Below, one piece after another: positions 7,352 through 20,994 of a DNA stretch of 64,000 bases. A model generated the notes under the pieces. The model did not search any database and was not told the DNA's origin. It saw only the letters and a program-made list of their open reading frames with translations. Origin of the DNA: Glutamicibacter sp. JC586 (lineage in GTDB: Bacteria; Actinomycetota; Actinomycetes; Actinomycetales; Micrococcaceae); contig NZ_VHIN01000002.1 in assembly GCF_009805585.1 (NCBI RefSeq), forward strand, positions 620,001 to 684,000, read 5' to 3'. How positions within the stretch are numbered: the stretch's first letter is position 1; the number at the start of each line of letters is the position of its first letter. The position numbers and the translations under genes were made by a program.

Positions 7352-8380
7352 TCAATGAGTTTTCATCGAGTCGCGCTCAATGAGCGGCATATCAATTTGA
7401 TGCTCCCCCGGCTCCAGCTTTCCATCGAGCAAGAGTTCAACGGCTAAGGCCCCCATTTCTTGATACGGAAGCCGGATGGAAGACAGCTGGGGACGTAAGT
7501 AACTAGCGATGATTTCATCGTCAAAGGACAACACCGATAGGTCCTTGCCCGGTATCAACTGCTTTTCGGCGAGCGCTTGGAATACACCCATGGCAACACG
7601 GTCGTTAGCACAGATTATGGCGTCAGGCAGTCCGGCCTCAGACAGCATTTGTGTAGTTGCGGTGTAGCCGTCCGTGGGATTCCAATCATCTAGGGTCCAG
7701 TGACCGAATAGCTCAAGGCTGGATTCTTCGAGTGTCTCAAAGAGCGAGGCGAATCGTCTCGTGATGCTCGGATAGAACCTCGGCCGCTTCGCAACATGGT
7801 TGAGTTGGCCAATGATGGCCACGGCGTGTGCGCCCGACGCAACGATGCGTTGAACTGCCGTCTTGCCTGATTCAAATTCATTGGGCAACACAGAAATACA
7901 AGGTCTCTCATCAATTCCGTTAACCAAGACTGTAGGCAATCCGGTGTGTGGAATTTTCAAATCGCGTTGTCGAGAATCCATGAATCCGAGAATCAATCCG
8001 TCAACGTCTCGGTGCGCCATTTGGGTGACCGCTTCAGCCAGTTGATCTGGCTTACCGAAGGTTTCAGCAATCAGCACCGTGTGCTCACGTCCCTCGGCTG
8101 CACGCAAGATTCCGGTAATCATTTCGGAGGCGAAACGAGTCACTGTCACCTGGTCAGAAATGAATCCCAGAGTGCGCGTTTTTCCGCTACGTAACGACTG
8201 AGCCGCAGCGTTGGGACGGTATCCAAGTTCTTTTGCTACTGCCCGGACTCGCTCCGCCGTTTCTTCGGAAAGACGTGTCCCAGGCTTGTTATTCAAGATC
8301 ATGCTGACCGAGGCTTTTGACATTCCTGACGCTTCTGAAACATCAGCTATCGTCACTCGCTTGGCTTTTTGCGTGTTCAC
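7352..8380 (-). CDS. cscR: LacI-family repressor of the sucrose operon (CscR-like)
   Basis: 342 residues, start GTG at 8380 with AAGGAAAC in front. The N-terminus is a LacI helix-turn-helix (TIADVSEASGMSKASVSMIL, about residues 10-29), with the hinge region near residue 55 and a periplasmic-binding-protein-like sensor domain after residue 65. It is transcribed divergently from the invertase-fructokinase-permease genes and faces an 18-bp palindrome at their transcription start. It is therefore very likely their repressor, induced by sucrose or a product such as fructose; the ligand is inferred. Confidence 0.85.
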   Translation of the reverse strand: MNTQKAKRVTIADVSEASGMSKASVSMILNNKPGTRLSEETAERVRAVAKELGYRPNAAAQSLRSGKTRTLGFISDQVTVTRFASEMITGILRAAEGREHTVLIAETFGKPDQLAEAVTQMAHRDVDGLILGFMDSRQRDLKIPHTGLPTVLVNGIDERPCISVLPNEFESGKTAVQRIVASGAHAVAIIGQLNHVAKRPRFYPSITRRFASLFETLEESSLELFGHWTLDDWNPTDGYTATTQMLSEAGLPDAIICANDRVAMGVFQALAEKQLIPGKDLSVLSFDDEIIASYLRPQLSSIRLPYQEMGALAVELLLDGKLEPGEHQIDMPLIERDSMKTH

Positions 8381-8426
8381 GTTTCCTTCTTGCGAATGGG
8401 GCAGGCAGTTATACGAGCGTAGCCTA

Positions 8427-8455
8427 TTGCGAGGTCTCGATCACACTGCTAAAGT
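8427..8455 (+). promoter_or_regulatory. Promoter of the csc operon
   Basis: -35 TTGCGA (8427-8432), 17-nt spacer, -10 TAAAGT (8450-8455). The predicted transcription start is at about 8462, inside the operator palindrome. Confidence 0.75.
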
Positions 8456-8459
8456 TCTG

Positions 8460-8477
8460 TGCTAAATGCATTTAGCA
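8460..8477. promoter_or_regulatory. Operator for the CscR-like repressor
   Basis: TGCTAAATGCATTTAGCA is a perfect 18-bp palindrome at the predicted transcription start of the csc operon. A half site TGCTAAA is repeated just upstream at 8447-8453, across the -10. The centre is GC, not the CG common in LacI-family operators. Confidence 0.8.
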
Positions 8478-8492
8478 GATTCTTACTGAAGG

Positions 8493-9974
8493 ATGGCAAC
8501 GTTGCCCGAAACCCAGCAGGTCGCGGTGAAGCGACCAGAGCTACACTTCACAGCAAAGAAAAACTGGATCAATGATCCCAACGGATTGTTCTTTGATGGA
8601 AAGCAATATCACCTCTACTTCCAGCACAACCCCAACGGAGTCGGCCACGGCTTCATGTCCTGGGGTCACGCGGTAAGCACCGACTTGGTCAACTGGACTG
8701 AACTGCCTATCGCGATCTTGCATGGAGATGTTGCAGATATCTTCTCTGGCTCCATCGTGGTGGACCACGAGAACACCAGTGGTTTTGGAAACGGAAGCGT
8801 TCCACCAGTTATTGCTATCTACACTGCAGCAGCTAAGGACGAGACCAACCAGTCGCAAGCCATTGCTTACTCGCTTGATGGTGGCGCAACCTTCACCAAG
8901 TACGAGCAGAACCCGATACTGGACCGAGGCTCCAAAGACTTCCGTGATCCAAAGGTCATTCGTTACGAATCCGCGGAAGGTTCTTTCTGGGTCATGGTTG
9001 CCGTGGAGGCAATCGAACGCCGAGTCCTGATCTACCGTTCCGAGAACCTGAAGGACTGGACCGAGCTCTCCAGCTTCGGCCCACAAGCCGCCACCGCTGG
9101 AATCTGGGAATGTCCAGACCTCTTCCAGCTCCCGGTTGCTGGCACCGATGAACTCAAGTGGGTTCTCATTGTTTCGCTGAACCCCGGTGGAATTGCAGGC
9201 GGTTCCGGCAGTCAATACTTCGTTGGCGAATTTGACGGCACCTCATTCAATCCTGACCAAGAGCAAGACGCTTGGGACAGCCTTGAATTCGAAACCCTGA
9301 AGCAGGGTCGCTGGTTGGACTACGGCCGCGATTTCTACGCAGGAGTGAGCTTCCACGGCTTGCCAGTAAACCAGCAGACTATCATCGCTTGGATGAGCAA
9401 CTGGGACTACGCCCGAGAACTCCCACACGGCGGATGGCGCGGCTCCATGAGCACCGCGCGTCAGGTGGACCTGGTCAAGGACTCTGACGGAAAGCTAGAA
9501 ATCCGCCAGTGCATTCTCGGTCTTCCTACTGCTGAAGAAACTGAGCAATCAACCGTGAATGGTGAGGGTCGCATTGAGCTTGGCTCCCCTGCATTGATTG
9601 AACTTACTACGGCAGGCGCCGTTGCTGAACCTGTTGTCGTTTCACTGCACCGATCAGATGACACCCTGATCAGTGAAATCAGCGTTGAATCGTCCTTGAT
9701 TCAGCACCGTCGTGAAGCCGGCTTGGTAAGCCATGAACTCTACTCATCCAACCAGCGTCTGCCGTTGCCAACAGATATTGACGAACTGTTAGTGCAGATT
9801 GTTTTGGATCATGGATCCATAGAGATATTGGCTGCTGATGGCCGCCGTTCATTGACAGACCAACTTACCGGTGAAGCTGTACCAGCGTACGCAGTTGTAC
9901 GAACCGCCGACGGCACTACCGCAAATGTCGGCGTCCAGACTCTGAGAATTCAGAGCACGGAGATCAACGCATGA
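8493..9974 (+). CDS. cscA: Intracellular GH32 sucrose hydrolase (invertase)
   Basis: 493 residues, no signal peptide. It carries the three GH32 catalytic motifs: WINDPNG with the nucleophile Asp28, FRDP (150-153) and WECPDL with the acid/base Glu206, followed by a beta-sandwich domain from about residue 340. It would cleave imported sucrose to glucose and fructose. The start is uncertain: the ATG at 8493 directly abuts the GAAGG sequence, while an in-frame TTG at 8502 has this Shine-Dalgarno sequence at normal distance. It overlaps the fructokinase gene by ATGA. Confidence 0.88.
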   Translation: MATLPETQQVAVKRPELHFTAKKNWINDPNGLFFDGKQYHLYFQHNPNGVGHGFMSWGHAVSTDLVNWTELPIAILHGDVADIFSGSIVVDHENTSGFGNGSVPPVIAIYTAAAKDETNQSQAIAYSLDGGATFTKYEQNPILDRGSKDFRDPKVIRYESAEGSFWVMVAVEAIERRVLIYRSENLKDWTELSSFGPQAATAGIWECPDLFQLPVAGTDELKWVLIVSLNPGGIAGGSGSQYFVGEFDGTSFNPDQEQDAWDSLEFETLKQGRWLDYGRDFYAGVSFHGLPVNQQTIIAWMSNWDYARELPHGGWRGSMSTARQVDLVKDSDGKLEIRQCILGLPTAEETEQSTVNGEGRIELGSPALIELTTAGAVAEPVVVSLHRSDDTLISEISVESSLIQHRREAGLVSHELYSSNQRLPLPTDIDELLVQIVLDHGSIEILAADGRRSLTDQLTGEAVPAYAVVRTADGTTANVGVQTLRIQSTEINA

Positions 9975-10876
9975 GTCGCATTACCGTTGCAGGCGAATCC
10001 CTCGTAGACGTCGTAGGAGACGAGGCACATGCAGGTGGGTCCCCACTCAACGTTGCTGTTGGCCTGGCTCGTCTCGGACATGACGTTGAGTTCTACACTG
10101 AATATGGTCAGGACGAGTACGGAAACCAGATTGCAGAGCACCTGAGCAAGGCTGGCGTTCAGGTAGCTGAAGGTTGCGTTACCGAACGCTCCACTTCGGT
10201 AGCCCAGGTGGAGATGGATGAGCAGTCAAATGCTCATTACAGCTTTGACATCCACCAGCAGATTCCTGACGTGCGCACCGATGATTCGGTTGAGCTTCTG
10301 CACACCGGCTCCATCGCTGCTTGGCTTGAACCTTCTGGTCAAAGCATTGTTGATGCGTTCCAGAATGCTGCAGATGTTTCGCTACGCAGCTATGACCCGA
10401 ACCTTCGTCCAGATCTTGTTGAGAACAAAGAAAAAGCACTCAAAAGAATTGAGTTGCTAATCAGCCTCAGCCATATCGTCAAGCTCAGCGACGTGGACGG
10501 CGAGTACCTTTACCCACATCTTGATCCATGGGGAGTTCTGGAGCATGTTGCCAGACTAGGCCCAGCGTTGGCTGTCATGACCCAGGGCGGTGGTGGTTGT
10601 CTAGCCCTAGCTGATGGCAAGCGCTACGACATGGCCGCCTCCCCTACCGAGCTGGTAGACACCATCGGTGCAGGCGATGCCTTCATGTCAGGACTTCTAA
10701 ACGGCGTCTTGACCACACCTGAACTAGCCACGACGCTACGCAACGGTGAGGCAGCTCAGACACAAGATATCGAGCACGCACTACGCCATGGCCTGACCTC
10801 CGCAGCACTGACGGTGGCGCAGGCCGGAGCTAATCCGCCTTGGCTTGAAGACTTCAACCACGCACTCAATAACTAA
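9971..10876 (+). CDS. cscK: Fructokinase, PfkB family
   Basis: 301 residues of the ribokinase/PfkB fold. The N-terminal signature is GGSPLNVAVGLARLG (about 22-36), and the C-terminal DTIGAGDAF holds the catalytic Asp. It phosphorylates fructose released by the invertase to fructose 6-phosphate. It starts at an ATG overlapping the invertase TGA, so the two are translationally coupled. It may also serve the fructose produced by the neighbouring levan pathway, which has no kinase of its own. Confidence 0.88.
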   Translation: MSRITVAGESLVDVVGDEAHAGGSPLNVAVGLARLGHDVEFYTEYGQDEYGNQIAEHLSKAGVQVAEGCVTERSTSVAQVEMDEQSNAHYSFDIHQQIPDVRTDDSVELLHTGSIAAWLEPSGQSIVDAFQNAADVSLRSYDPNLRPDLVENKEKALKRIELLISLSHIVKLSDVDGEYLYPHLDPWGVLEHVARLGPALAVMTQGGGGCLALADGKRYDMAASPTELVDTIGAGDAFMSGLLNGVLTTPELATTLRNGEAAQTQDIEHALRHGLTSAALTVAQAGANPPWLEDFNHALNN

Positions 10877-10914
10877 CTACGCTTCACAGCTACACGAAAG
10901 AATCCAGGACAAAG

Positions 10915-12213
10915 ATGGCTGGCTTTACAACTGCTCTGAAAAATCCCGTATACCGACAGAGCTCATTCTCGATGCTTCTTTTCTTTGCATCGTGGGGAAT
11001 CTGGTGGTCCTTCTTCCAAATTTGGCTCACCAGCGACGCCGCCGGATTGTCCTTATCCGGCGCTCAGGTTGGCACCGTATATTCGGTGAATTCCTTGGCT
11101 ACCCTGCTCTTGATGTTTGGCTACGGAGCCGTCCAGGACCGTCTGGGTATCAAGAAGACTCTGGCCATCGTGCTGGCCGCAGTGACGGCGCTAATTGGCC
11201 CGTTCGCAACGTGGGTCTACCAACCGTTGTTGCAGAGCCACTTTATGGCTGGTGTCATCATCGGAGCCATTGTGCTGTCGGTTGGATTCCTTGCCGGCGT
11301 TGGTCTGTTTGAAGCCTTGACCGAACGCTTCAGCCGGCGTTTCAACTTTGAATACGGACAGGCCCGCATGTGGGGTTCCTTCGGCTACGCAGTAGTAGCA
11401 CTGGCCGCAGGCTTCCTGTTCACCATCAATCCAGCTTTGAACTTCTGGATCGGTTCGGTACTAGGTCTGATTCACTTGTTACTGTTGCTCTTCACCCGTA
11501 CCGGTGAACCACCAGTAATCAAGCGAGCTCCAGTAGACGGCATCCTCTCCCCTGCCTCCACACCGTCATTCCGTGAAATGTTGGGACTGTTCAAGCTGCC
11601 AAGCCTTTGGCTAATCATTCTCTTTGTCATGCTCTCATGGACGTTCTATACCGTCTTTGATCAGCAGATGTTCCCTGACTACTACACCGGGCTCTTTGAG
11701 ACTCAGGAAACTGGACAACAGGTTTACGGTATCTTGAATTCTGTCCAGGTCTTCCTCGAAGCCGCGATGCTGGGAATCGTGCCAATCATCATGCGCCGAG
11801 TTGGTGTTCGCACTTCGCTGTTGATGGGTGTCTCCATCATGTTCGTCCGAATCCTCGGGTGCGCTTTAGTAGATGATCCCGTATGGGTCTCTGCCATCAA
11901 GATGCTGCACGCCATCGAAACTCCGCTGTTCATCCTGCCGGTGTTCCGTTACTTCACCCTGCACTTCAACCCAGCACTGTCCGCAACGTTGTACATGGTT
12001 GGATTCCAAGTTTCTGCTCAGATTGGCAACGTCATCCTGTCCACTCCCCTCGGTGCCCTGCATGACCACATGGGCTACCAGCAGACGTTCATCACCATCT
12101 CCATCGTGGTGCTAGTCGCCGGTATCTACGGATTTTTTGCGCTGAAGAAAGACGACCAGCAGGTTGACGGCGATCCATTCTTGCGACACTCGAAACTGAG
12201 GGTCGACGCCTAA
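10915..12213 (+). CDS. cscB: Sucrose:H+ symporter, CscB-like (MFS, oligosaccharide symporter family)
   Basis: 432 residues, 12 predicted helices. The match to E. coli CscB as I recall it is strong throughout: YSVNSLATLL, GAVQDRLGIKK, FEYGQARMWGSFGYA, FDQQMFPDYYTGLFE and LLSTPLGALHDHMGYQ all align with equivalents in CscB. It imports sucrose with a proton. It begins 38 nt after the kinase with AGGACAAAG before the ATG and ends at a terminator, closing the csc operon. A PTS route is absent here, consistent with symport followed by intracellular hydrolysis. Confidence 0.88.
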   Translation: MAGFTTALKNPVYRQSSFSMLLFFASWGIWWSFFQIWLTSDAAGLSLSGAQVGTVYSVNSLATLLLMFGYGAVQDRLGIKKTLAIVLAAVTALIGPFATWVYQPLLQSHFMAGVIIGAIVLSVGFLAGVGLFEALTERFSRRFNFEYGQARMWGSFGYAVVALAAGFLFTINPALNFWIGSVLGLIHLLLLLFTRTGEPPVIKRAPVDGILSPASTPSFREMLGLFKLPSLWLIILFVMLSWTFYTVFDQQMFPDYYTGLFETQETGQQVYGILNSVQVFLEAAMLGIVPIIMRRVGVRTSLLMGVSIMFVRILGCALVDDPVWVSAIKMLHAIETPLFILPVFRYFTLHFNPALSATLYMVGFQVSAQIGNVILSTPLGALHDHMGYQQTFITISIVVLVAGIYGFFALKKDDQQVDGDPFLRHSKLRVDA

Positions 12214-12413: not shown

Positions 12414-13142
12414 CTATTTGTTCAAATACCATGGAGGGGTCGGCATTGCGCCCAGCTTCTTCTTGACCTCGTCGTCATACATGGTCAACGCGATTTCATC
12501 GAGGCTTTGCGAACTATTCGCTGCCACCAGATATACCGTTTTGTAGAACTCGACCCAATTCTCAGGCAGAACACGCTTAAATACCGGAGCAGTCTGAATT
12601 CCGTAGACTTCGTGGCCTAGTTCTTCATAAACAGGTTTCGTCAGTTCGACAGGTGCGTATGGGTTGGGGGTAACGAATACCCTCGCACCCCAGCTTGTTA
12701 ATTCGTCTTGCAATCCGGGGCGTTCAATCTTCTCTTTACCTAAGAGGTGCAATCCTGCGTGGCGATAAATACTGATAACTAACCGGACGTCGCGATCTCG
12801 GAGCTTGCGTTCGAAATCAGGAAGAGCCTCAGCAATCTTTTGTTTGCTGACATCCTTCTCTCCTACGCTCGGCTCCATCACCAGGTCTGTGAAGCCGATC
12901 CCTTTCGCGACAAGCGCGTCATCCAGGTACTCGCCGTTAAGGAACTCGGGTTTGCAGATCGCATGAGCGACCCGCTGCAACATCAATTTCCCATTATGCC
13001 CTTGGTAGTAATGTCCTGAGAGAACGCTGGGTGGTGCTGGATTCAGCCCCGCAATGACGACTTTAGAATCGCACTCGGGCCACAAATCAGCAAGCGACAT
13101 TTGGCCATCGGATAATACTGCCTGGTGCCCAATCAGACCCAT
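12414..13142 (-). CDS. Uracil-DNA glycosylase superfamily protein (MUG/TDG type)
   Basis: Start set at the ATG at 13142, which has TTGGAG seven bases upstream; the longer frame to 13199 lacks a site. The product is 242 residues. VVIAGLNPAPPS (28-39) matches the water-activating GLNP motif of mismatch-specific glycosylases, and VTPNPYAP about 140 residues later matches the second, DNA-intercalating motif. It would excise uracil or thymine from mispairs, or represent a relative that has lost this; the loop following GLNP differs from E. coli Mug. It stands alone after the csc operon and is slightly lower in G+C than its neighbours. Confidence 0.65.
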   Translation of the reverse strand: MGLIGHQAVLSDGQMSLADLWPECDSKVVIAGLNPAPPSVLSGHYYQGHNGKLMLQRVAHAICKPEFLNGEYLDDALVAKGIGFTDLVMEPSVGEKDVSKQKIAEALPDFERKLRDRDVRLVISIYRHAGLHLLGKEKIERPGLQDELTSWGARVFVTPNPYAPVELTKPVYEELGHEVYGIQTAPVFKRVLPENWVEFYKTVYLVAANSSQSLDEIALTMYDDEVKKKLGAMPTPPWYLNK

Positions 13143-13512
13143 TTTGTTCTCCAATACTTCTTGCCAATAAATACCATGAATAATATTTTTATGCCCCACT
13201 GACAGTTTTTGCAGACTAATGTGCAGGAACGTTCTTAGTGAAGTCTCGGGTTCACTGATTTGCCACCTATCCGGTCTAGGAATCCTGTCCTGCTCTAACT
13301 AGGACAGACCAGTTAATTGGGCAGATAATACTCTCAGTGTCATTGAAGTTGCGCTTGGCGAGATTCGAAACGAAACAATCCTCTTGGTCGACGAAGTTGG
13401 AGGTCAGATTGTGACCACCATACAACTCCTTCTAGAGCGCGATCGTAGTGGGAACTTCCTGTTGTCATTTGCTCAACACAGCAGCCAGTTTTTCATTTTA
13501 CCTACTCAAGAA
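13143..13512. other. Intergenic region between the UDG-like gene and the levan operon
   Basis: 370 bp without a convincing gene. It contains an inverted repeat TGTCCT-N9-AGGACA (13286-13306) and a plus-strand frame open from 13303 that runs into the levan fructotransferase gene in antisense without a good start or ribosome-binding site. No terminator hairpin is visible after the fructotransferase stop. Confidence 0.5.
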
Positions 13513-15072
13513 TCAGATCCGCTCCCCAAACTCCCGCACCATAATCCCCGAGAACCTCGCTACTCCACCATCAGTGTAGAACGATACGCCGCTGTCCCCG
13601 TCTGCGAAGTGAACCTGTTGCGAGATCACCGAATGACCGGCGTTGACGAAGACTTCCACGCTCTGCGTATCCACGAAGATTCGCAAGTGTACCGAGCGGG
13701 CGCCAGCATCGATAGGCGCAGCTGCCCTGGTGTAAGGACTCAGTTCGAATCCGGTCTGGTTTGACGGACTCCGGTCGACGTATAACTCGCTGCCGTATTT
13801 CCCGATATTTGTGTGTCGAGTTCCGTCAGCAGCACGTCCAACTGAAACACCAACGTTCGTCGCAGAGTCCCACGCAATGTCCAGTTCTAGTTCGTAGGCA
13901 CGTCCATTCCACGGAAGCAGGAAGCTGCCGTCAACATTTTGGTCATCAAAGGAGTGCGTTGCTGTGGCGTGGCTGGACAAGGCTTTGATGGGATTGCTGA
14001 GCAACGCATACCGCCCATCACCCTGTTTGGAGATTTCCAGTTCTCGCACGATAGAGTTTTGACCGTTGTATCCGTCGCTGGCATCCGTTGGTACCTCACG
14101 GTTTGCGTACTTCCAGTTGTTCATCCAGCCTATGGCCAACCGCTTCGTGTCAGGGTCTTGTTCCGAAGGCCAGGAGACTGCTCCGTACCAGTCCCATCCC
14201 CAGTCCAGCCACTGTGGTTCAATGTCATCAGCGATGAATTGCTCTCCGTCCCACTCCCCTGTCCAGTACGCGTAGGTCATCGGCAGACCAATACTGTATG
14301 CATCCATGCTGGCTCCTAGAACCCAGTGGCGAGTTCCGTCATCCGCTGTCATTTCGAAGAGGTCCGGACATTCAATGCCTCCCAATTCATGATTCGGAAA
14401 GTCAAAGTTTCGTTTCAGCTGCCATTCGCGCAAATTCTTTGACGTGTAAAAGACTGCGTAGCGTGCCCGCCCAATGACACACACCCATTCATTGCGCGCA
14501 GAGTCCCAGTGAATCTTGGGATCTCGGAACCACTCTGCGTTCTCAATCTCGGCCTGAGTGGTGGCGCTACGACCATCAGTGTTGACGATGACCGGTTCTG
14601 ACAAGCCGTTGAATGTGTATCCTCCGTCTGTTGACCAATAGAGATACTGTTCTTGGTATTTGCGGACGCCATCGGTCGGCCGTGTCGCCAGAGCAACCAA
14701 TGCCCCCGCCCCAAACCCAGCGGTGTTCTTTTCATCGATAACACTAGAGCCAGTCCAGACGGGAAAGTTTGGTTTCTGCCCTATAGCTACTCCGTGATGA
14801 GTGAATGAAACTCCATCAGTGGTGGTTGCGTGGTCCCAGTCTCCAGGACCGTTGTTCACATCTGAATGCAGATAGTAGAGGTGGTATGCACCGTTGAGGA
14901 ACACCGGACGTTGAGGATCACATAACCATCCAGCAGGTGGAGTCATATGATAAAATGCCCGTTGAGAGATTGCGGCTCGTGCTGCAATGGGCAGTGAACT
15001 GGCAGCGCCAAGTCCGAGTGCTCCTATGCCTGCGATTTGAAACAGACTACGTCGGGAAATTTCGTGCATCAT
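13513..15072 (-). CDS. lft: Secreted GH32 levan fructotransferase (difructose anhydride IV-forming)
   Basis: 519 residues. A Tat signal peptide is evident: SRRSLF at 6-11, hydrophobic core, AARA near 30-33. The mature part is a GH32 propeller plus sandwich, but the nucleophile motif is WLCDPQRP (Asp52) instead of WMNDPNG; RDP is at 183-185 and ECPDLF holds Glu234. From memory, the variant motif, overall length and long stretches match the levan fructotransferase of Arthrobacter ureafaciens, which turns beta-2,6-levan into the cyclic disaccharide DFA IV by intramolecular transfer. It has a good AAGGA site, and is the last gene of the operon, 100 nt after the LacI gene. An exo-levanase is the alternative. 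Confidence 0.82.
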   Translation of the reverse strand: MMHEISRRSLFQIAGIGALGLGAASSLPIAARAAISQRAFYHMTPPAGWLCDPQRPVFLNGAYHLYYLHSDVNNGPGDWDHATTTDGVSFTHHGVAIGQKPNFPVWTGSSVIDEKNTAGFGAGALVALATRPTDGVRKYQEQYLYWSTDGGYTFNGLSEPVIVNTDGRSATTQAEIENAEWFRDPKIHWDSARNEWVCVIGRARYAVFYTSKNLREWQLKRNFDFPNHELGGIECPDLFEMTADDGTRHWVLGASMDAYSIGLPMTYAYWTGEWDGEQFIADDIEPQWLDWGWDWYGAVSWPSEQDPDTKRLAIGWMNNWKYANREVPTDASDGYNGQNSIVRELEISKQGDGRYALLSNPIKALSSHATATHSFDDQNVDGSFLLPWNGRAYELELDIAWDSATNVGVSVGRAADGTRHTNIGKYGSELYVDRSPSNQTGFELSPYTRAAAPIDAGARSVHLRIFVDTQSVEVFVNAGHSVISQQVHFADGDSGVSFYTDGGVARFSGIMVREFGERI

Positions 15073-15172
15073 TGCGCGTTCCTTCCTGTATCTGACACGC
15101 GCGTCGCTGCGCGGTCAGGAGGAGAAAAGTTTGAGGGGGCCAGCGATTGTTGCCGGTGATCTTGAAGTCTTC

Positions 15173-16192
15173 TCAGACCGACTGTCGTCGAATGGCGGGG
15201 CAGTCAATCAAATACGTGCCTTTGTCCTGTTCTGGATCAATGCCTAGAAGAACCCGGATGCCAGCGGCACCAAGTTCATAGTGAGGCAGCGCCACGGTGG
15301 TTAACGGTGGCCTTAGGTGCGCCGCAATGACTTCCTGATTATCAAAGCCAACTACGGAAACGTCTGTGGGTACGTCCAATCCACGTACTCTTAGCCCGTC
15401 GTAAAGGCCCATGGCCACACGGTCGTTATGGCAGAAGACTGCGGTGGCGCCCGACGCAACAACTGCGGTTGTTGCTTCGTATCCTCCTTCTTGTTCAGGG
15501 GTCGCAGGAATGACCAGTGACTTGTCATAGGCAACGCCTGCGTCTTCAAGTGCTGAACGGTACCCGGCCAACCGTCCAGTCAATGCTGGTGACGGCGTGG
15601 TCGTATTGATGAAGGCAATCCGTTGGTGTCCCGACGCGATGAGTTCTTGAGTTGCGGTCTTTCCCCCTTGTTCCTCATCCGGTACAACCGCTGGCAAACC
15701 GCTTCCCGTGGAGAAACAGTTCACGAGGACCGTATCTGTCTGCAGCAGTGGATCCGGGACCTCTATTTCGCGGTGGTACCAAGTGGAATAAAGAATCCCC
15801 CGCACTTGGTGTTCCAACATCATAGCTATCGCATCTGATTCAGCTGCTTGGTTACCGTCCGTATTGGCTACGAGTAAAACGTATCCGTGCTTCCACGCTT
15901 CGTCTTGGGCACCATGAATAATCTGACCGGCGAAAGGTGTGGTTGCAATGGCATCCGCCACGAGGCCAATGAACCGTGAAGATCCTGAAGACAGGTTCTT
16001 GGCCAATGCGTTGGTTCGATATCCCAAAAGTTCTACCGCTTCATGGACACGTTGTCTGGTTTCCTCTCCGATGCGTGCGCCTGGTTTGTTGTTCACTACG
16101 TGCGAGACAGTTGCTACTGAAACACCGGCTTCTTTGGCAATGTCTTTCATGGTGACGGGTGCACCATGTTTGCTTGATCTGTCTTTGATCAT
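15173..16192 (-). CDS. LacI-family regulator of the levan/DFA operon
   Basis: 339 residues with a LacI helix-turn-helix (TMKDIAKEAGVSVATVSHVV, about 14-33) and a sugar-binding effector domain. Its ATG overlaps the TGA of the second permease gene (ATGA), so it is made from the same transcript as the transporter. The near-palindromes TTAATCGGTTAA and TCAACCGGTTAA at the operon promoter are its likely operators, giving autoregulation. The effector could be DFA IV or a fructose derivative; this is inferred. Confidence 0.85.
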   Translation of the reverse strand: MIKDRSSKHGAPVTMKDIAKEAGVSVATVSHVVNNKPGARIGEETRQRVHEAVELLGYRTNALAKNLSSGSSRFIGLVADAIATTPFAGQIIHGAQDEAWKHGYVLLVANTDGNQAAESDAIAMMLEHQVRGILYSTWYHREIEVPDPLLQTDTVLVNCFSTGSGLPAVVPDEEQGGKTATQELIASGHQRIAFINTTTPSPALTGRLAGYRSALEDAGVAYDKSLVIPATPEQEGGYEATTAVVASGATAVFCHNDRVAMGLYDGLRVRGLDVPTDVSVVGFDNQEVIAAHLRPPLTTVALPHYELGAAGIRVLLGIDPEQDKGTYLIDCPAIRRQSV

Positions 16193-17106
16193 CCCTTGGT
16201 TGCTCCACTCTCAAGTCCCTGGATCATTGCCTTGTTCAGAACAAGGAAGACCAGGAGCAGTGGCGTGACGGAAACGCAGACCGCCGCAAAGGTTGCCGTC
16301 CAGTCGGTATTGCCCATCGCGCCAATGTAATTCTGCAAGCCTAGCGGAATGGTCTTCAGTCCGTCGGAGAGCACAAAGGTATTGGCGAAAATGAAATCGT
16401 TCCAGATGAAGATACTGTTCACCAGCACCACGGTGACGATGGTATTCAGCGAGAGCGGGAAGGTGATCTGGGTAAAGATTCGGTATGGGCCAGCGCCATC
16501 CAAGGAAGCTGCCTCATAGGTTTCTCGAGGAATGAATCCGTAGAACGACGAGAACAGGTAGATGGACATCGGCATAGAGAAGGCCGCCAACGGGATAATC
16601 ATCGACAGGTGGGTGTCTAGCAATCCCACTTTTGAATAGTCAATGAACAGTGGCACCAAGGCAATCTGTACCGGAACAATGATGCCCAGCATAAATAGTG
16701 CACGGACCAAATTGCTCAGTCTAAAGCCCAAGACTTCCAAGGCAAACGCTGCCATCATGCCGGCGATAACAATTAGTGCACTGGCGCCCAAGGTGACAAT
16801 CAGCGAGTTGACGATATTCATACCGAGATCTCCAGTAGCAAACGCTCTGGAGTAGTTTTCTAGCGTGAATTCACTCGGCCAGGAGAACGCGTTGCCACCA
16901 GCAAAATCAGATGCCGTTCTAAAACTGGTGAGGAACATCCACACAAGTGGGTAAACCTGCACGATGACAATCAGTACGATGGTGAGAGTCAGCAAGTTGC
17001 GTTGGATTTTAAGCCGTCGCGGCTTTCTCGACCTAGGCTGCGGCTGATTTTCGAAGGAGGGCTCAGTCATGGTTACCTTCTTGTCCACTTCCAGCGTTGT
17101 AGTCAT
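16189..17106 (-). CDS. ABC sugar permease, MalG type (CUT1 family)
   Basis: 305 residues from the ATG at 17106, which overlaps the TGA of the first permease (ATGA); the longer frame to 17160 lies inside that gene. Six membrane segments are predicted. The EAA loop (EAASLDGAGPYRIFTQITFP) that contacts the ATPase is clear. It forms the channel with the MalF-type partner to import a small oligosaccharide delivered by the binding lipoprotein. No ATPase gene is in the operon, as is usual in actinobacteria where a shared MsiK-type ATPase is used. Confidence 0.88.
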   Translation of the reverse strand: MTTTLEVDKKVTMTEPSFENQPQPRSRKPRRLKIQRNLLTLTIVLIVIVQVYPLVWMFLTSFRTASDFAGGNAFSWPSEFTLENYSRAFATGDLGMNIVNSLIVTLGASALIVIAGMMAAFALEVLGFRLSNLVRALFMLGIIVPVQIALVPLFIDYSKVGLLDTHLSMIIPLAAFSMPMSIYLFSSFYGFIPRETYEAASLDGAGPYRIFTQITFPLSLNTIVTVVLVNSIFIWNDFIFANTFVLSDGLKTIPLGLQNYIGAMGNTDWTATFAAVCVSVTPLLLVFLVLNKAMIQGLESGATKG

Positions 17107-18062
17107 GAGTTGTCCTTTCGGCGCAGCATCAGCAGGATCAGTCCAACGGCAACGAGGCACTCAATCACAATGAATACTGAAATGGCACTGGCGTAACCAT
17201 AATCAGTGTGCACAAAAGCCGTCTTGTACATGTAAGTGGTCAGCAGTTCCGAAGACTGTCCAGGACCGCCGTTGGTGAGCAGGTATGGAATATCGAATCC
17301 ACGCAAGGCGAAGGTGGTTGCCATGATGGTGGTTGTGGTCCAGACCGGTCGAATGTGTGGGAAGCGGACGTTCCAGAAGACCTGCCACCATGAGGCGCCA
17401 TCCAAGCGTGCTGCCTCTTCGAGTTCTCGTGGAACCGAAATGAGTGCCGCGTAAATGATCAGCATGTACAGGCCGGTGTAACGCCAGCCTTCAGGGATGG
17501 ATACCGCGGCAAGTACGGTCTGAACATTTGAGAGCCACGCAGTTTGGAACTGGCCGAGGCCGACCCACTCAAGCAACTGGTTGAGCATGCCTACTGGCTC
17601 CAGTGAATAGATCCGAAGGAACAAGAAGCCAATAGCCACAGTGGAAATCACTGCGGGCAACAGGTACAAGGTCTTGACCAGTTCGCGGGCCTTGGGCAGC
17701 GCGGTGAGCAGGCTTGAAACTATCAGCGCTCCCCCAAGCTGCAGGACCAAGCAGATCACCAGGTAACCTACTGCGTTGGCAAATGCTGTCCAGAAGACAT
17801 CATCACGGGAAAGCATCTTTATGTAGTTATCCAGACCAACAAACTTCATGTTGGTGATGCCGTCCCATTTGAAGAAGCTCAGGAACAGCGACTGAACGAT
17901 AGGCAGAAGAACTGCAACGCCGTAGATCACTAGTGGTGGCAACAGGAAGATGGCCACCGATAGCTTGGAACGGCGGGGCAACATGGAAGCTGGTGCCTTC
18001 TTCCGCGTCCGGCGAGCGCGCGCCGGACGCGTAGCAGGAGCACTTTCTACGATGCTACTCAC
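17103..18062 (-). CDS. ABC sugar permease, MalF type (CUT1 family)
   Basis: About 319 residues. I place the start at the GTG at 18062, which has GAAGGAG seven bases upstream; the ATG at 18068 is only one base from that site. The start overlaps the end of the binding-protein gene. A basic N-terminus (ARRTRKK) precedes six membrane segments, and EEAARLDGASWWQVFWNVRF is the ATPase-contact loop. It pairs with the MalG-type permease encoded immediately downstream. Confidence 0.87.
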   Translation of the reverse strand: MSSIVESAPATRPARARRTRKKAPASMLPRRSKLSVAIFLLPPLVIYGVAVLLPIVQSLFLSFFKWDGITNMKFVGLDNYIKMLSRDDVFWTAFANAVGYLVICLVLQLGGALIVSSLLTALPKARELVKTLYLLPAVISTVAIGFLFLRIYSLEPVGMLNQLLEWVGLGQFQTAWLSNVQTVLAAVSIPEGWRYTGLYMLIIYAALISVPRELEEAARLDGASWWQVFWNVRFPHIRPVWTTTTIMATTFALRGFDIPYLLTNGGPGQSSELLTTYMYKTAFVHTDYGYASAISVFIVIECLVAVGLILLMLRRKDNS

Positions 18063-19392
18063 CGACATTCTCCTTCAGAGAAGCGTCCATGGTGGTGACA
18101 AACTCATCTGGGGTGATGTCTCCTTGGACCAGCAGAGTCAGTTCCTGCTGCAGACGCGTGTTGGTAGCTGGGTCCAGCTGGGTATCCCACGGCATGGCGA
18201 TCTTGCTGCCCACATCATCGGCTTGCTTGATGGCCTGGTCATAGAGCTTAGTGGCCTTCTTTGGCACGGTGGTCTTGGCGCCGGTGGTTGGTGAGAGTGC
18301 ACCGGTGGATGCGTAGAGTTCTGGGTAGCGCTCTAGTGCGAAGGCGAGGAAGTCGCGGACCAGTGGGTCATAGGTCTGTGCGTTGACTGCCATCCCGATA
18401 CCGGATGGGCTCACGTATTCGTTGGCAGCTGTGGCTGAACCTTCGATGGTTGGCAGCGTGAAGTAGTCAACGTCATCTCGAACTTTGGCATCCAGAGTAT
18501 CGGTGGCCAAGTTGTTTAGCTCCCAGGTTCCGATGTTGTAGACACCGGCCTTGCCGCTTGTGAACAGTCCCTGCGCATCGGAATATCCGGCTGAAGAGAA
18601 GCCCTTCTGGAAGCAGCCGGCCTGGCCCAGATCCGAGAGCCACTGCGCTGCGGCTTTTCCTTCTGGGTCCGAGAACTTGGCTTCACCGGTCTTCAGCTTC
18701 TGCACGTACTCCGGTCCGGACATGCGGAATGGATAGTAGGACATGTAGCGTTCCAGTGGCCATTGGTCTTTGCCATCTAGTGCAATAGGCGTGATGCCTT
18801 CTTCCTTTAGCGCCTTGCACATGGCGGGGAAGTCATCGAGTGACTTTGGAACGTCAACGCCTGCGTTCTTGAAGACATCTTTGTTGTACCAGAAGAATTC
18901 CAGCTGGAATTCGAAAGGAACCATGTAGAGGGAACCGTCGTCAAAGCGCTGGTAGTTCAGCGCGGCTTCACGGTACTCATCGCCCAAATTCAGGTCCGTC
19001 AACAGCTTGTCTACGTCAATCATCTGTCCGGTTTGAGCGAGCTTCTGCGCAAATGGTGTGGCATCAGTATCAAATAGCTCAGGCAGTTTCTTCGCTGCCG
19101 CCAAGGTCTCATACTTCTGAATGTAGGACGGACGATCCGGTGTGGTGATCAGATTCAGTGAAAAACCAGGGTGGTCTTTTGCATATTCGTCAGCAATTTT
19201 CTCCATCGTCGTTATCACACCACCATCAGCCGGACGTGAGAGCAACCAGGAGATTTCGCGAGGCTTAATGTCGCCCTCGGGATTCACGTTGGTTGGGTCA
19301 GCGCCTGAGCTTCCACCGCAGCTGGATAGCACCAGAGCGGTAGCGGCGAGGAACGGCAAGAACTTAAAACGGCGAGCTGTCTTGGACATCAT
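18055..19392 (-). CDS. ABC transporter sugar-binding lipoprotein (family 1 solute-binding protein)
   Basis: 445 residues from the ATG at 19392, which has GGAG six bases upstream. The signal peptide ends in a lipobox (LSSC), followed by a Gly/Ser linker. The rest is a cluster B solute-binding protein of the carbohydrate type, with many Trp/Tyr residues suited to stack on sugar rings. It would capture the extracellular product of the levan fructotransferase, DFA IV or short levan oligomers. It lies 52 nt after the GH32 gene and overlaps the first permease gene. Confidence 0.87.
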   Translation of the reverse strand: MMSKTARRFKFLPFLAATALVLSSCGGSSGADPTNVNPEGDIKPREISWLLSRPADGGVITTMEKIADEYAKDHPGFSLNLITTPDRPSYIQKYETLAAAKKLPELFDTDATPFAQKLAQTGQMIDVDKLLTDLNLGDEYREAALNYQRFDDGSLYMVPFEFQLEFFWYNKDVFKNAGVDVPKSLDDFPAMCKALKEEGITPIALDGKDQWPLERYMSYYPFRMSGPEYVQKLKTGEAKFSDPEGKAAAQWLSDLGQAGCFQKGFSSAGYSDAQGLFTSGKAGVYNIGTWELNNLATDTLDAKVRDDVDYFTLPTIEGSATAANEYVSPSGIGMAVNAQTYDPLVRDFLAFALERYPELYASTGALSPTTGAKTTVPKKATKLYDQAIKQADDVGSKIAMPWDTQLDPATNTRLQQELTLLVQGDITPDEFVTTMDASLKENVGE

Positions 19393-19444
19393 GAGATTCT
19401 CCATTGAAGTCGTAGTGCAAGTGGATGGCTGGCGATTGGCGTCG

Positions 19445-20920
19445 TCAGGCCGAAGGAGTGAAGGCTCTGCTTTCAGTGGCTACATCGGCGCTTGACCCGC
19501 TGTCACGCGTTGCGATGGTGAACTGGGAAATGGTGACCGCGCCTTCGCCAACAAAGGCTCCGGCCCGACCGGTAGGTCGGTCATACAGTCGTGTACTCAG
19601 AACCGTTGCATCATCCAGGGTTGCGACACAGAGGTTCCCGTCAACAATGACGTCTAGCTCGTGCGAGCCCGGGCCGATCAGGCAGGGCCGTTCGAGTTCA
19701 ATGGCAAAGGGCACGTCTCCGTTGATATGCCATTGTTCTGGACCTGGAACCCGGCGAGGCCAGCGGTCCAAGACCAGTCGATTTCGTTGTGGTTCTAGCT
19801 TCAGGGCGTATCCTTCATCGCCGTCGGCGCTAGCCCGCAGCAGAACTCCTACCTCCCTGGTACCCTCTTCGATCTCAAAGTGAGCACGTAGCCGGAAGGA
19901 AGATGAGGTGTCTTCTTGTGTGACTACATCCGCGTAACCATCCAGAGCTACCAAACGGGTTCCTGCGCTGAAAGCGGCTTGTTCTTCTTGGAAAGTTGAA
20001 CGCAGTTCCTGTGGCGGGTGGAAGGCCAGGGTTCCGTCTTCTCGTTGTTCAGCTTCCAGAACCGAGAGCGTTCCTGCCCACTGCCAGGCGCCGGCGTCAC
20101 AGGAATTTTCTTTTGATGCAATCCATCCAAAGAAAAATCGACGTCCATCACGTTCAGCAGACTTGGATGCGTAGTAAGCCCGTCCATCCAAGGTGTCGTA
20201 TTCAGGGACAATCCACGGACCGTTCAGGCTACGTGCCATCCGGTAGCGGGTGGTGAATGCATCACTGAATTCCGAATAGACGAGATACCACCAGCCTCCC
20301 CACTGGAAGACCTCTGGGCATTCATGGGCAATGTAGCGTCGAGGATCCCAGAAAGGTTCTATTGGTTCCCATGTAGAGAGATCTGTAGAGGTGCACTGTG
20401 CAATGACTCCGCGTCGTCGCTCTGCACCGCTATTATGGCGGGCTGTGATGAGCATGCGCCACAGGTCTGACTCGGCATCCCAAAATACGTATGGATCTCG
20501 CCAGTCACCGGACTCGTAGCCAGTCGTTGCTCCGAAGGTATCCTCAGGGTGACGCTGCCAAGATTTCATTCCGTCGGTGCTGGTTGCGTGCATCGCGAGC
20601 TGCAATGGACGACCATCTTCACCAAGGCGGTTTGGGTTCTGCCCGGTGTAGAACGCATGATGTTTTCCGTTGGCGTCTAGGACAATACTGCCGGTGTAGA
20701 CGTTGTAGTCATCAGCTTCTAAACCACCGGATGCGATTGATTCTCCGGTTTCGCGGAAATTCACAACGTCATCGGTCAAGATACGATGCCATGGCATGCC
20801 GCCACCAGATGCTCCACGGTCTTCATGGAGATAGAAGAGATGGAAGGCTCCGTCTTCTTGCCACGGAATAACATCGCCTACCCACGCTCCATTGGGCCGG
20901 TAGAACCCTTGTGCTGTCAT
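19445..20920 (-). CDS. Cytoplasmic GH32 enzyme with divergent active-site motif; candidate DFA IV hydrolase
   Basis: 491 residues, no signal peptide. It is a five-bladed propeller with C-terminal sandwich of the GH32 clan, but the nucleophile motif is WVGDVIPW (Asp16) in place of WMNDPNG; DWRDPYVF (139-146, Asp142) and HECPEVF (Glu200) complete the triad. It is the first gene of the levan operon, ahead of the importer, so it probably cleaves the imported sugar, giving fructose or levanbiose. The change in the pocket motif fits a substrate other than sucrose. A plain beta-fructosidase is possible. The ATG has only a weak AGG upstream. Confidence 0.8.
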   Translation of the reverse strand: MTAQGFYRPNGAWVGDVIPWQEDGAFHLFYLHEDRGASGGGMPWHRILTDDVVNFRETGESIASGGLEADDYNVYTGSIVLDANGKHHAFYTGQNPNRLGEDGRPLQLAMHATSTDGMKSWQRHPEDTFGATTGYESGDWRDPYVFWDAESDLWRMLITARHNSGAERRRGVIAQCTSTDLSTWEPIEPFWDPRRYIAHECPEVFQWGGWWYLVYSEFSDAFTTRYRMARSLNGPWIVPEYDTLDGRAYYASKSAERDGRRFFFGWIASKENSCDAGAWQWAGTLSVLEAEQREDGTLAFHPPQELRSTFQEEQAAFSAGTRLVALDGYADVVTQEDTSSSFRLRAHFEIEEGTREVGVLLRASADGDEGYALKLEPQRNRLVLDRWPRRVPGPEQWHINGDVPFAIELERPCLIGPGSHELDVIVDGNLCVATLDDATVLSTRLYDRPTGRAGAFVGEGAVTISQFTIATRDSGSSADVATESRAFTPSA

Positions 20921-20938
20921 GACTTGCCTGTCTTTAGG

Positions 20939-20994
20939 TTAATCGGTTAAGCACTAACCCTAGTGGCGCTAGTCACATTTGGTCAACCGGTTAA
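20939..20994 (-). promoter_or_regulatory. Promoter and twin LacI-type operators of the levan operon
   Basis: Minus strand: -35 TTGACC (20986-20981), 18-nt spacer, -10 TAGGGT (20962-20957), transcription start about 20950. Two near-palindromes flank it: TCAACCGGTTAA (20983-20994, over the -35) and TTAATCGGTTAA (20939-20950, at +1 to +12). Each departs from TTAACCGGTTAA at one symmetric pair. Their centres are 44 bp apart, about four helical turns, on the same DNA face. Confidence 0.75.

Follow-up and report, generated by a model that had tools for sequence, protein, structure and literature searches.

Levan fructotransferase beside a candidate uptake and ring-opening system for difructose anhydride IV in Glutamicibacter sp. 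JC586

Levan fructotransferase (LFT; EC 4.2.2.16) converts levan into the cyclic disaccharide difructose anhydride IV (DFA IV) (PMC8605356; PMC6245366; papers cited by PMC number are represented here, as throughout, by extracts of their text). The literature found on LFT and DFA IV is mostly concerned with sweetener and prebiotic chemistry, and bacterial use of DFA IV was not found there. An operon of six minus-strand genes (13513-20920) in Glutamicibacter sp. JC586 raises the question by which genes a producer of this sugar might take it up and open it. The operon lies in a stretch of 64 kb, called the window here, which corresponds to contig positions C11:620001-684000 in the 3.52 Mb genome. 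According to the analysis described below, DFA IV is probably made outside the cell, imported by an ATP-binding cassette (ABC) transporter and opened inside by a second enzyme of glycoside hydrolase family 32 (GH32).

The operon and its exported enzyme

In the order of transcription, the genes encode an intracellular GH32 protein (iGH32; 19445..20920), proposed as a DFA IV hydrolase which turns the ring into levanbiose, the substrate-binding lipoprotein (SBP) of an ABC importer (18055..19404), a permease in MalF-like position (17103..18068), a MalG-like permease (16189..17160), a LacI-family regulator (15173..16192) and an exported GH32 protein, an LFT which is DFA IV-forming by homology (13513..15072). 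Both GH32 proteins possess the GH32N and GH32C domains above the Pfam gathering score as well as the catalytic triad and thus belong to the family. The lipoprotein is an SBP_bac_1 protein (PF01547), the permeases carry one BPD_transp_1 domain each (PF00528) and the regulator combines LacI (PF00356) with Peripla_BP_3 (PF13377). An ATG at 17106, preceded by AGGAC, fits better as start of the second permease than the open reading frame (ORF) start at 17160 and is probably the true one. With this start the two permease genes overlap by 4 bp, as do those of the second permease and LacI, and the overlap between lipoprotein and first permease amounts to 14 bp; gaps of 40 and 100 bp separate iGH32 from the lipoprotein and LacI from the exported GH32, respectively. 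Coordinates and Pfam domains therefore bear out the gene order, overlaps and domains given in a preceding sequence-only reading of this DNA. The gene set is found again in many genera, so the arrangement is not due to chance; the closest named relative among the matches listed is Arthrobacter sp. NIO-1057 with an iGH32 identity of 86%. A scan for sigma-70 promoters and terminators was no better than in shuffled sequences (4 vs a mean of 5.4 and 7 vs 6.9, respectively).

A sequence search with the exported GH32 gave the PDB entries 4FFF/4FFG, the LFT of Arthrobacter (Paenarthrobacter) ureafaciens, as top match with 908 bits, and 370 of 480 positions aligned with 4FFF (77%) are identical. The second-best family, represented by the levanase LevB1 (9H8I), reached 363 bits. 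The likeness to Arthrobacter LFT, already noticed from the letters alone, is well supported by these values. The catalytic residues assigned by motif, D52 (WLCDPQ), D184 (FRDPK) and E234 (IECPD), are common to the LFT rows and the levanase-like rows of the alignment. Beyond these, 24 positions (first Met excluded) show one and the same residue in 97% or more of 60 LFT rows, among which duplicates were kept when a genome had been reached by two routes, and are absent from all 18 distant rows, which comprise relatives of 36-51% identity. The N-terminus reads MMHEISRRSLFQIAG... and contains the twin-arginine motif SRRSLF; the pattern RRx[FLIVAM] occurs within the first 60 residues in 54 of the 60 LFT rows. 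At the level of this motif the Tat (twin-arginine translocation) type export signal of the earlier reading is present, and the protein is predicted to leave the cell by this way. Taken by its homology, the exported GH32 is very probably an LFT making mainly DFA IV from levan.

A further LFT-family GH32 of the same genome (40% identity; G000:C19:465279-466667, locus L031) has an adjoining LacI gene. Three LFT-like proteins of 52-53% identity (G259:C12:183486, G452:C8:97698 and G456:C47:8972) sit in frames of 836-840 codons and may represent a subfamily of LFT that has an additional domain.

The internal GH32, its importer and their association with levan fructotransferase

Among solved structures the best sequence match of iGH32 is BT1760, an endo-levanase of Bacteroides (134 bits). 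In a Foldseek search with an AlphaFold model built on an alignment of 26 iGH32 sequences (mean predicted local distance difference test, pLDDT, 86; predicted template modelling score, pTM, 0.88), the first five places were taken by BT1760 entries (template modelling (TM) score 0.79-0.82), and LFT (4FFI) ranked tenth. The triad D16, D142 and E200 is invariant in 26/26 sequences. The pocket floor of BT1760 is formed by D41, T104 and C222 (PMC6560043), which align in sequence with D16, T76 and C201 of iGH32. In this alignment W44, likewise invariant in all 26 sequences, replaces I72 of BT1760, and the loop just before I72 is described as being without tryptophan (PMC6560043). No signal peptide was seen by eye in the iGH32 of the window or in 29 homologous ORFs, some of which are N-terminally extended by the mechanical choice of start. 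As judged by eye iGH32 thus departs from the export of a BT1760-type endo-levanase, and it looks intracellular.

Since O6 is substituted on both fructoses of DFA IV, an enzyme which opens the ring requires a −1 site that tolerates O6 substitution. Such a site exists in an endo-levanase, and exo-enzymes of the pocket type are expected to lack it. In BT1760 the levan chain is bound across the −1 site, and levanbiose is not cut (PMC6560043); the latter agrees with a pathway whose last cut is left to another, exo-acting GH32. On these chemical grounds iGH32 may open the DFA IV ring. An assignment as invertase or sucrose-phosphate hydrolase was rejected: the scrB_fam model gave 80 bits vs a cut-off of 356, the NDPNG motif is missing and the closest fold is the endo-levanase.

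The lipobox of the SBP reads LSSC, and its cysteine (Cys29) is invariant in 23/23 aligned sequences. The fold of oligosaccharide-binding proteins is seen in its predicted structure, whose confidence is moderate (pLDDT 73). Homologues of the first permease, about 68-95% identical, stand beside iGH32 and SBP in related loci. With an SBP_bac_1 protein and two BPD_transp_1 permeases in one cluster this is an SBP-type ABC importer, the ligand being predicted. No ATPase gene is present inside the six-gene operon, and two proteins with a MalK OB domain (PF17912) are encoded elsewhere in the same genome. An importer ATPase encoded away from the operon is common for actinobacterial sugar importers. Uptake of DFA IV by this system is the function which we infer from its company.

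This company was followed in two surveys. Of 395 genomes of the family, 31 have a match above the LFT cut-off (E<=1e-130) and 39 above that for iGH32 (E<=1e-40), and iGH32 accompanies LFT in all 31 LFT genomes, on one contig and within about 8 kb. The eight genomes with iGH32 but without LFT at this cut-off are G107, G173, G209, G333, G396, G398, G402 and G425. In the other survey a search at E<=1e-50 found LFT-family proteins in 19 of 98 relatives. All seven with a true LFT (65-100%) also possess iGH32 vs none of the twelve which have only levanase-like enzymes (best match 35-46%). In three further genomes, G062, G079 and G096, an iGH32 is present (35, 71 and 31%, respectively), and the search at 1e-50 gave no protein of the LFT family.

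A contrast is provided by two operons of levanase type from the same genus, L018 and L024. Their LFT-like GH32 is 39-42% identical by blastp (43-46% by genome search), and according to the ORF lists iGH32 is absent from both. A LacI gene is present, and the importer consists, as seen by eye, of Opp/Dpp-type permeases and two ATPases; the binding protein of L024, the only one for which a domain run was made, is an SBP_bac_5 protein (PF00496). Linear levan fragments seem to enter in these two cases through a different importer, with no iGH32 at its side, and this is an argument for pairing iGH32 with the cyclic product of LFT. For fragments of a fructan, the transporter class seen beside the levanase-type GH32 (L018:4229-12458, L024:7434-15656), an Opp/Dpp-type (SBP_bac_5) importer, is in itself unusual.

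To describe the surroundings of iGH32 more widely, named genomes were scanned with the iGH32 alignment and the best 80 of 483 relatives were kept as loci, of which 66 have at least 9 kb on either side (14 with short flanks were dropped). Presence of a gene was counted at 50% identity or more (LFT at 60% or more), not by exact order. The genes for iGH32, SBP, both permeases and LacI, i.e. the regulator included, occur together in 66/66 loci. This five-gene block is spread over Arthrobacter, Paenarthrobacter, Pseudarthrobacter, Microbacterium, Plantibacter and Agromyces as well as Oerskovia, Cellulomonas, Sanguibacter and Actinomadura, which we take to belong to Micrococcaceae, Microbacteriaceae, Cellulomonadaceae and others. 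Paenarthrobacter nicotinovorans, for example, has both LFT and the block at its locus L141. LFT stands in the flank of 38 loci, an exo-type GH32 in 35, both in 23 and neither in 16. Counting the window, LFT lies downstream of iGH32 on the same strand in 23 cases, upstream and divergent in 14, upstream on the same strand in one and downstream on the opposite strand in one; with four placements the association of LFT and block outlives gene order. In L082 and L088 an additional iGH32 of lower similarity (35%) lies close to the block.

With 28 of the 66 loci lacking LFT, possession of the block does not strictly depend on DFA IV being made by the host itself. Fragments of LFT beside the block in two of these, L052 (genome G173; about 9302-9439) and L053 (G333; about 8229-9170), indicate that at least there LFT was lost and the block kept. 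In the alignment of SBPs, those of LFT-less loci are 66-78% identical to that of the window and those of Arthrobacter-type LFT loci 66-68%; this equal closeness suggests an unchanged ligand. A substitute for LFT was not obvious in the 28 loci: recurrent unmatched ORFs were mostly shadow frames, with no glycosidase recognisable by eye. Taken together, the LFT-less loci suggest scavenging, be it of DFA IV or of another substrate.

Regulation, final steps and rival readings

A pair of operator-like sequences precedes iGH32. Both are near-palindromes on the minus strand and putative LacI operators: TTAACCGGTTGA (20983..20994), with the upstream end of the pair at 20994, where the stretch marked in the sequence-only reading ends as well, and TTAACCGATTAA (20939..20950), 44 bp from it. 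The pattern TTAACCGNTTRA, picked after the window had been viewed and two near-copies had been noticed by eye, has exact matches in 45 of 108 regions upstream of iGH32, duplicate genomes left in (e.g. L019/L065, L049/L117 and L052/L130), vs 0 in five shuffled sets. It is found in none of 105 SBP, 60 LFT and 52 exo-GH32 upstream regions. The stricter palindrome TTRAYCGRTYAA occurs in 3 of the 108 regions, or in 38 if one mismatch is allowed, and a search for exact inverted repeats upstream of iGH32 gave nothing consistent (best half-site in 7/103 regions, shuffles up to 3). Sampled Arthrobacter-type loci lack the exact pattern but have a related pair, GCTAAAACGCTTGATCA / GTGATCAAACGCTTTAGCA, before iGH32; in several of nine a third related site stands upstream of this pair, on the side facing LFT in loci with a divergent LFT. 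In the whole genome TTAACCGNTTRA has three exact sites, two of them in front of iGH32. The third (G000:C3:514169-514180, L147) is apparently located between an FAA-hydrolase-like gene and a probable symporter gene; as judged by eye, the former resembles the FAA-hydrolase-family gene of the window.

The sequence-only reading had called the operon self-contained, which does not hold: there is no ATPase inside, and the way from levanbiose to fructose-6-phosphate needs the adjacent operon or equivalents of it. This neighbour comprises, on the plus strand, an exo-type GH32 (8493..9974; PF00251, motif INDPNG), which likely acts on the opened disaccharide, a fructokinase-like PfkB kinase (9971..10876; PF00294, best NCBIfam model fructokinase, below its cut-off) and a LacY-type sugar/H+ symporter (10915..12213; PF01306). 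A second LacI regulator (7352..8380, minus strand; PF00356) is divergent from it. All four further species of the genus that possess LFT have the set of exo-GH32, kinase and symporter (8493-12213) next to their LFT block, and some members of the set are neighbours of levanase-type operons in this genus too. Outside the genus, exo-GH32 homologues in the flank that passed the filter are 35-48% identical. Between the two operons of the window lies a gene for a uracil-DNA-glycosylase superfamily protein (12414-13199; PF03167, 26.6 bits), which at the compared loci has a homologue, a partial one, in L016 only.

Assembled from these parts, the pathway would start with the Tat-exported LFT, which would turn levan mainly into DFA IV. 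The lipoprotein and the two permeases would import the cyclic disaccharide with energy from a shared ATPase of MalK type whose gene lies outside the operon. Inside, iGH32 as a retaining enzyme of BT1760 type would accept the O6-substituted fructose and open the ring to levanbiose, and this step is the main new claim. The exo-GH32 (8493-9974, or a homologue near the block elsewhere) would cut levanbiose to fructose, which would be phosphorylated by the fructokinase. LacI would repress from the operator pair before iGH32 until the imported sugar or levanbiose relieves repression. As a cyclic sugar is usable by few microbes, the product of the exported enzyme would be kept partly private.

Several observations weigh against this pathway. 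BT1760 is just 23-24% identical to iGH32 in the fold alignment, so that opening of DFA IV cannot be read from residues. Both by fold and by sequence the SBP matches a mixture of proteins (binders of chito- and xylo-oligosaccharides, raffinose, sucrose and cycloalternan), and no fructan or DFA ligand is named among them. The exact TTAACCGNTTRA is missing from 63/108 iGH32 upstream regions. Genome G079 has the complete block, an exo-GH32 and a fructokinase and no LFT-family match at 1e-50. The co-occurrence counts ignore kinship, and the surveys of 395 and 98 genomes overlap. Above all, in the 28 genomes whose loci are without LFT no match of at least 60% was found in a search at E<=1e-20, and the block there must act on something not made by an LFT of the host. 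In 25 of these 28 genomes some LFT-family GH32 is present (E<=1e-20; the best two 52-53%, four 43-47%), which could supply linear fragments. Finally, LFT presence and absence alternate with no fewer than 13 changes along the tree of iGH32, in which the row of the window is coded as lacking the exo-GH32 although this gene sits about 3.5 kb beyond the LFT gene.

Part of this evidence would be explained if importer and iGH32 served the linear levan oligosaccharides levanbiose and levantriose, possible minor products of LFT, with iGH32 as an intracellular levan-oligosaccharide hydrolase. BT1760, its nearest characterised relative, is described as cutting levantriose and longer chains, and among the many block genomes without LFT the 25 with another LFT-family GH32 would fit as well. 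However, iGH32 is missing from the twelve relatives with levanase-like enzymes only and present in all seven with LFT, the levanase-type operons L018 and L024 use an unrelated importer, and with DFA IV yields of 73-76% (PMC6245366) most of the LFT product would be wasted. We therefore consider a function for linear oligosaccharides rather unlikely. Somewhat less probable still is a block that scavenges a different small fructoside, either a difructose anhydride other than DFA IV or a disaccharide with a fructosyl unit, and recruited LFT secondarily. The 16 loci with neither LFT nor exo-GH32 nearby would agree with it, as would the repeated switches on the tree and the more distant locus L059 (iGH32 54%), which has a different ABC importer (permeases 27-30%). 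This is countered by iGH32 standing near LFT in 31/31 LFT genomes of the family and in four placements, by the SBPs of LFT-less loci, which are as close to the window as those of Arthrobacter-type LFT loci, and by the LFT fragments in two LFT-less loci. Least of all is an ordinary levan or sucrose cluster to be expected, in which the exported GH32 is just a levanase. LFT does fall into the same GH32 branch as the endo-levanase LevB1 (363 bits), but 908 bits and 77% identity to LFT as well as the 24 LFT-fixed positions absent from 18/18 distant relatives make such a cluster highly improbable.

We thus return to production of DFA IV outside, import and opening inside as the probable course. The proposal of the sequence-only reading that the ABC system imports DFA IV and the internal GH32 opens it has gained strong indirect support by the co-occurrence (31/31, and 7/7 vs 0/12), qualified by the 28 of 66 loci without LFT. 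Whether one may go further and see in iGH32 the first identified DFA IV hydrolase, with an activity new to GH32 that arose from a pocket of endo-levanase type, in the block a widespread actinobacterial system for DFA IV uptake, and in the repeated loss of LFT the origin of scavengers living on the DFA IV of their neighbours is in our opinion evenly balanced. If this holds, a transporter, a ring-opening enzyme and a regulator for DFA IV would have been named, and enzyme makers would learn which gene's deletion would accumulate the sugar. With LFT as a costly exported enzyme, its loss would describe a natural system of producers and cheaters around a privatised sugar, and genomic signatures of producers and non-producers would be at hand to test cyclisation as privatisation of a public good.

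Comparison with known systems

The earlier reading had also taken a dedicated DFA IV route to be little described genetically. Among the matches listed in the open-licence literature, which leaves most subscription journals outside, no gene for a DFA IV hydrolase or a DFA IV importer is named, and to this extent the statement stands; parallels are known for DFA III, DFA I and cyclic maltosyl-maltose (CMM). The LFT of Paenarthrobacter ureafaciens (4FFF/4FFG/4FFH/4FFI) shares 77% identity over 480 residues and the GH32N and GH32C domains with the exported enzyme, and entry 4FFG holds it in complex with DFA IV. However, it is known as an enzyme, its partners for uptake and opening not being named in the literature searched. 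BT1760 of Bacteroides thetaiotaomicron (6R3R/6R3U; PMC6560043) is the closest structure to iGH32, with the same catalytic triad. It differs by its signal peptide and its action on the polymer, whereas iGH32 is, as judged by eye, intracellular, has W44 in place of Ile72 and adjoins an SBP_bac_1 importer.

Clusters for difructose anhydrides have been described in other bacteria. The ring enzyme of Bifidobacterium dentium is an alpha-fructofuranosidase of a family which we take to be GH172. Its DFA I locus resembles the operon by LacI, a GH32 protein, an ABC transporter and a probably intracellular enzyme active on the dianhydride, but this enzyme belongs to a family reported as new and the substrate is DFA I, not DFA IV (PMC8605356). 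In the DFA III clusters of Blautia a dianhydride hydrolase, a GH32 beta-fructofuranosidase and an ABC transporter likewise stand together, and import followed by intracellular opening was hypothesised by the authors (PMC11538131). There, however, the hydrolase is a GH91 enzyme, the substrate is DFA III, and the extracts do not mention that the cluster encodes an exported enzyme for cyclisation (PMC11538131).

The nearest precedent for the whole course is the CMM pathway encoded by cmmA-G of Arthrobacter globiformis M6 (PMC7676653). An exported transferase makes a cyclic sugar there as well, an SBP and two permeases are given with no ATPase named, the ring is opened by an intracellular enzyme, and an exo-glycosidase, an alpha-glucosidase, helps to finish the degradation (PMC7676653). 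Its authors propose a competitive advantage from the exclusive cyclic form (PMC7676653). The CMM pathway starts from starch, uses GH13 enzymes and has parts tested by experiment, whereas the system described here starts from levan, uses GH32 enzymes and is predicted from its genes; its exported cyclising enzyme is recognised as such by homology to LFT. With this precedent the levan operon may be supposed to work like the CMM pathway. A system of this kind is thus already known from CMM and in parallels from DFA III and DFA I, and what the Glutamicibacter operon adds is iGH32 as a candidate for a new activity of GH32.

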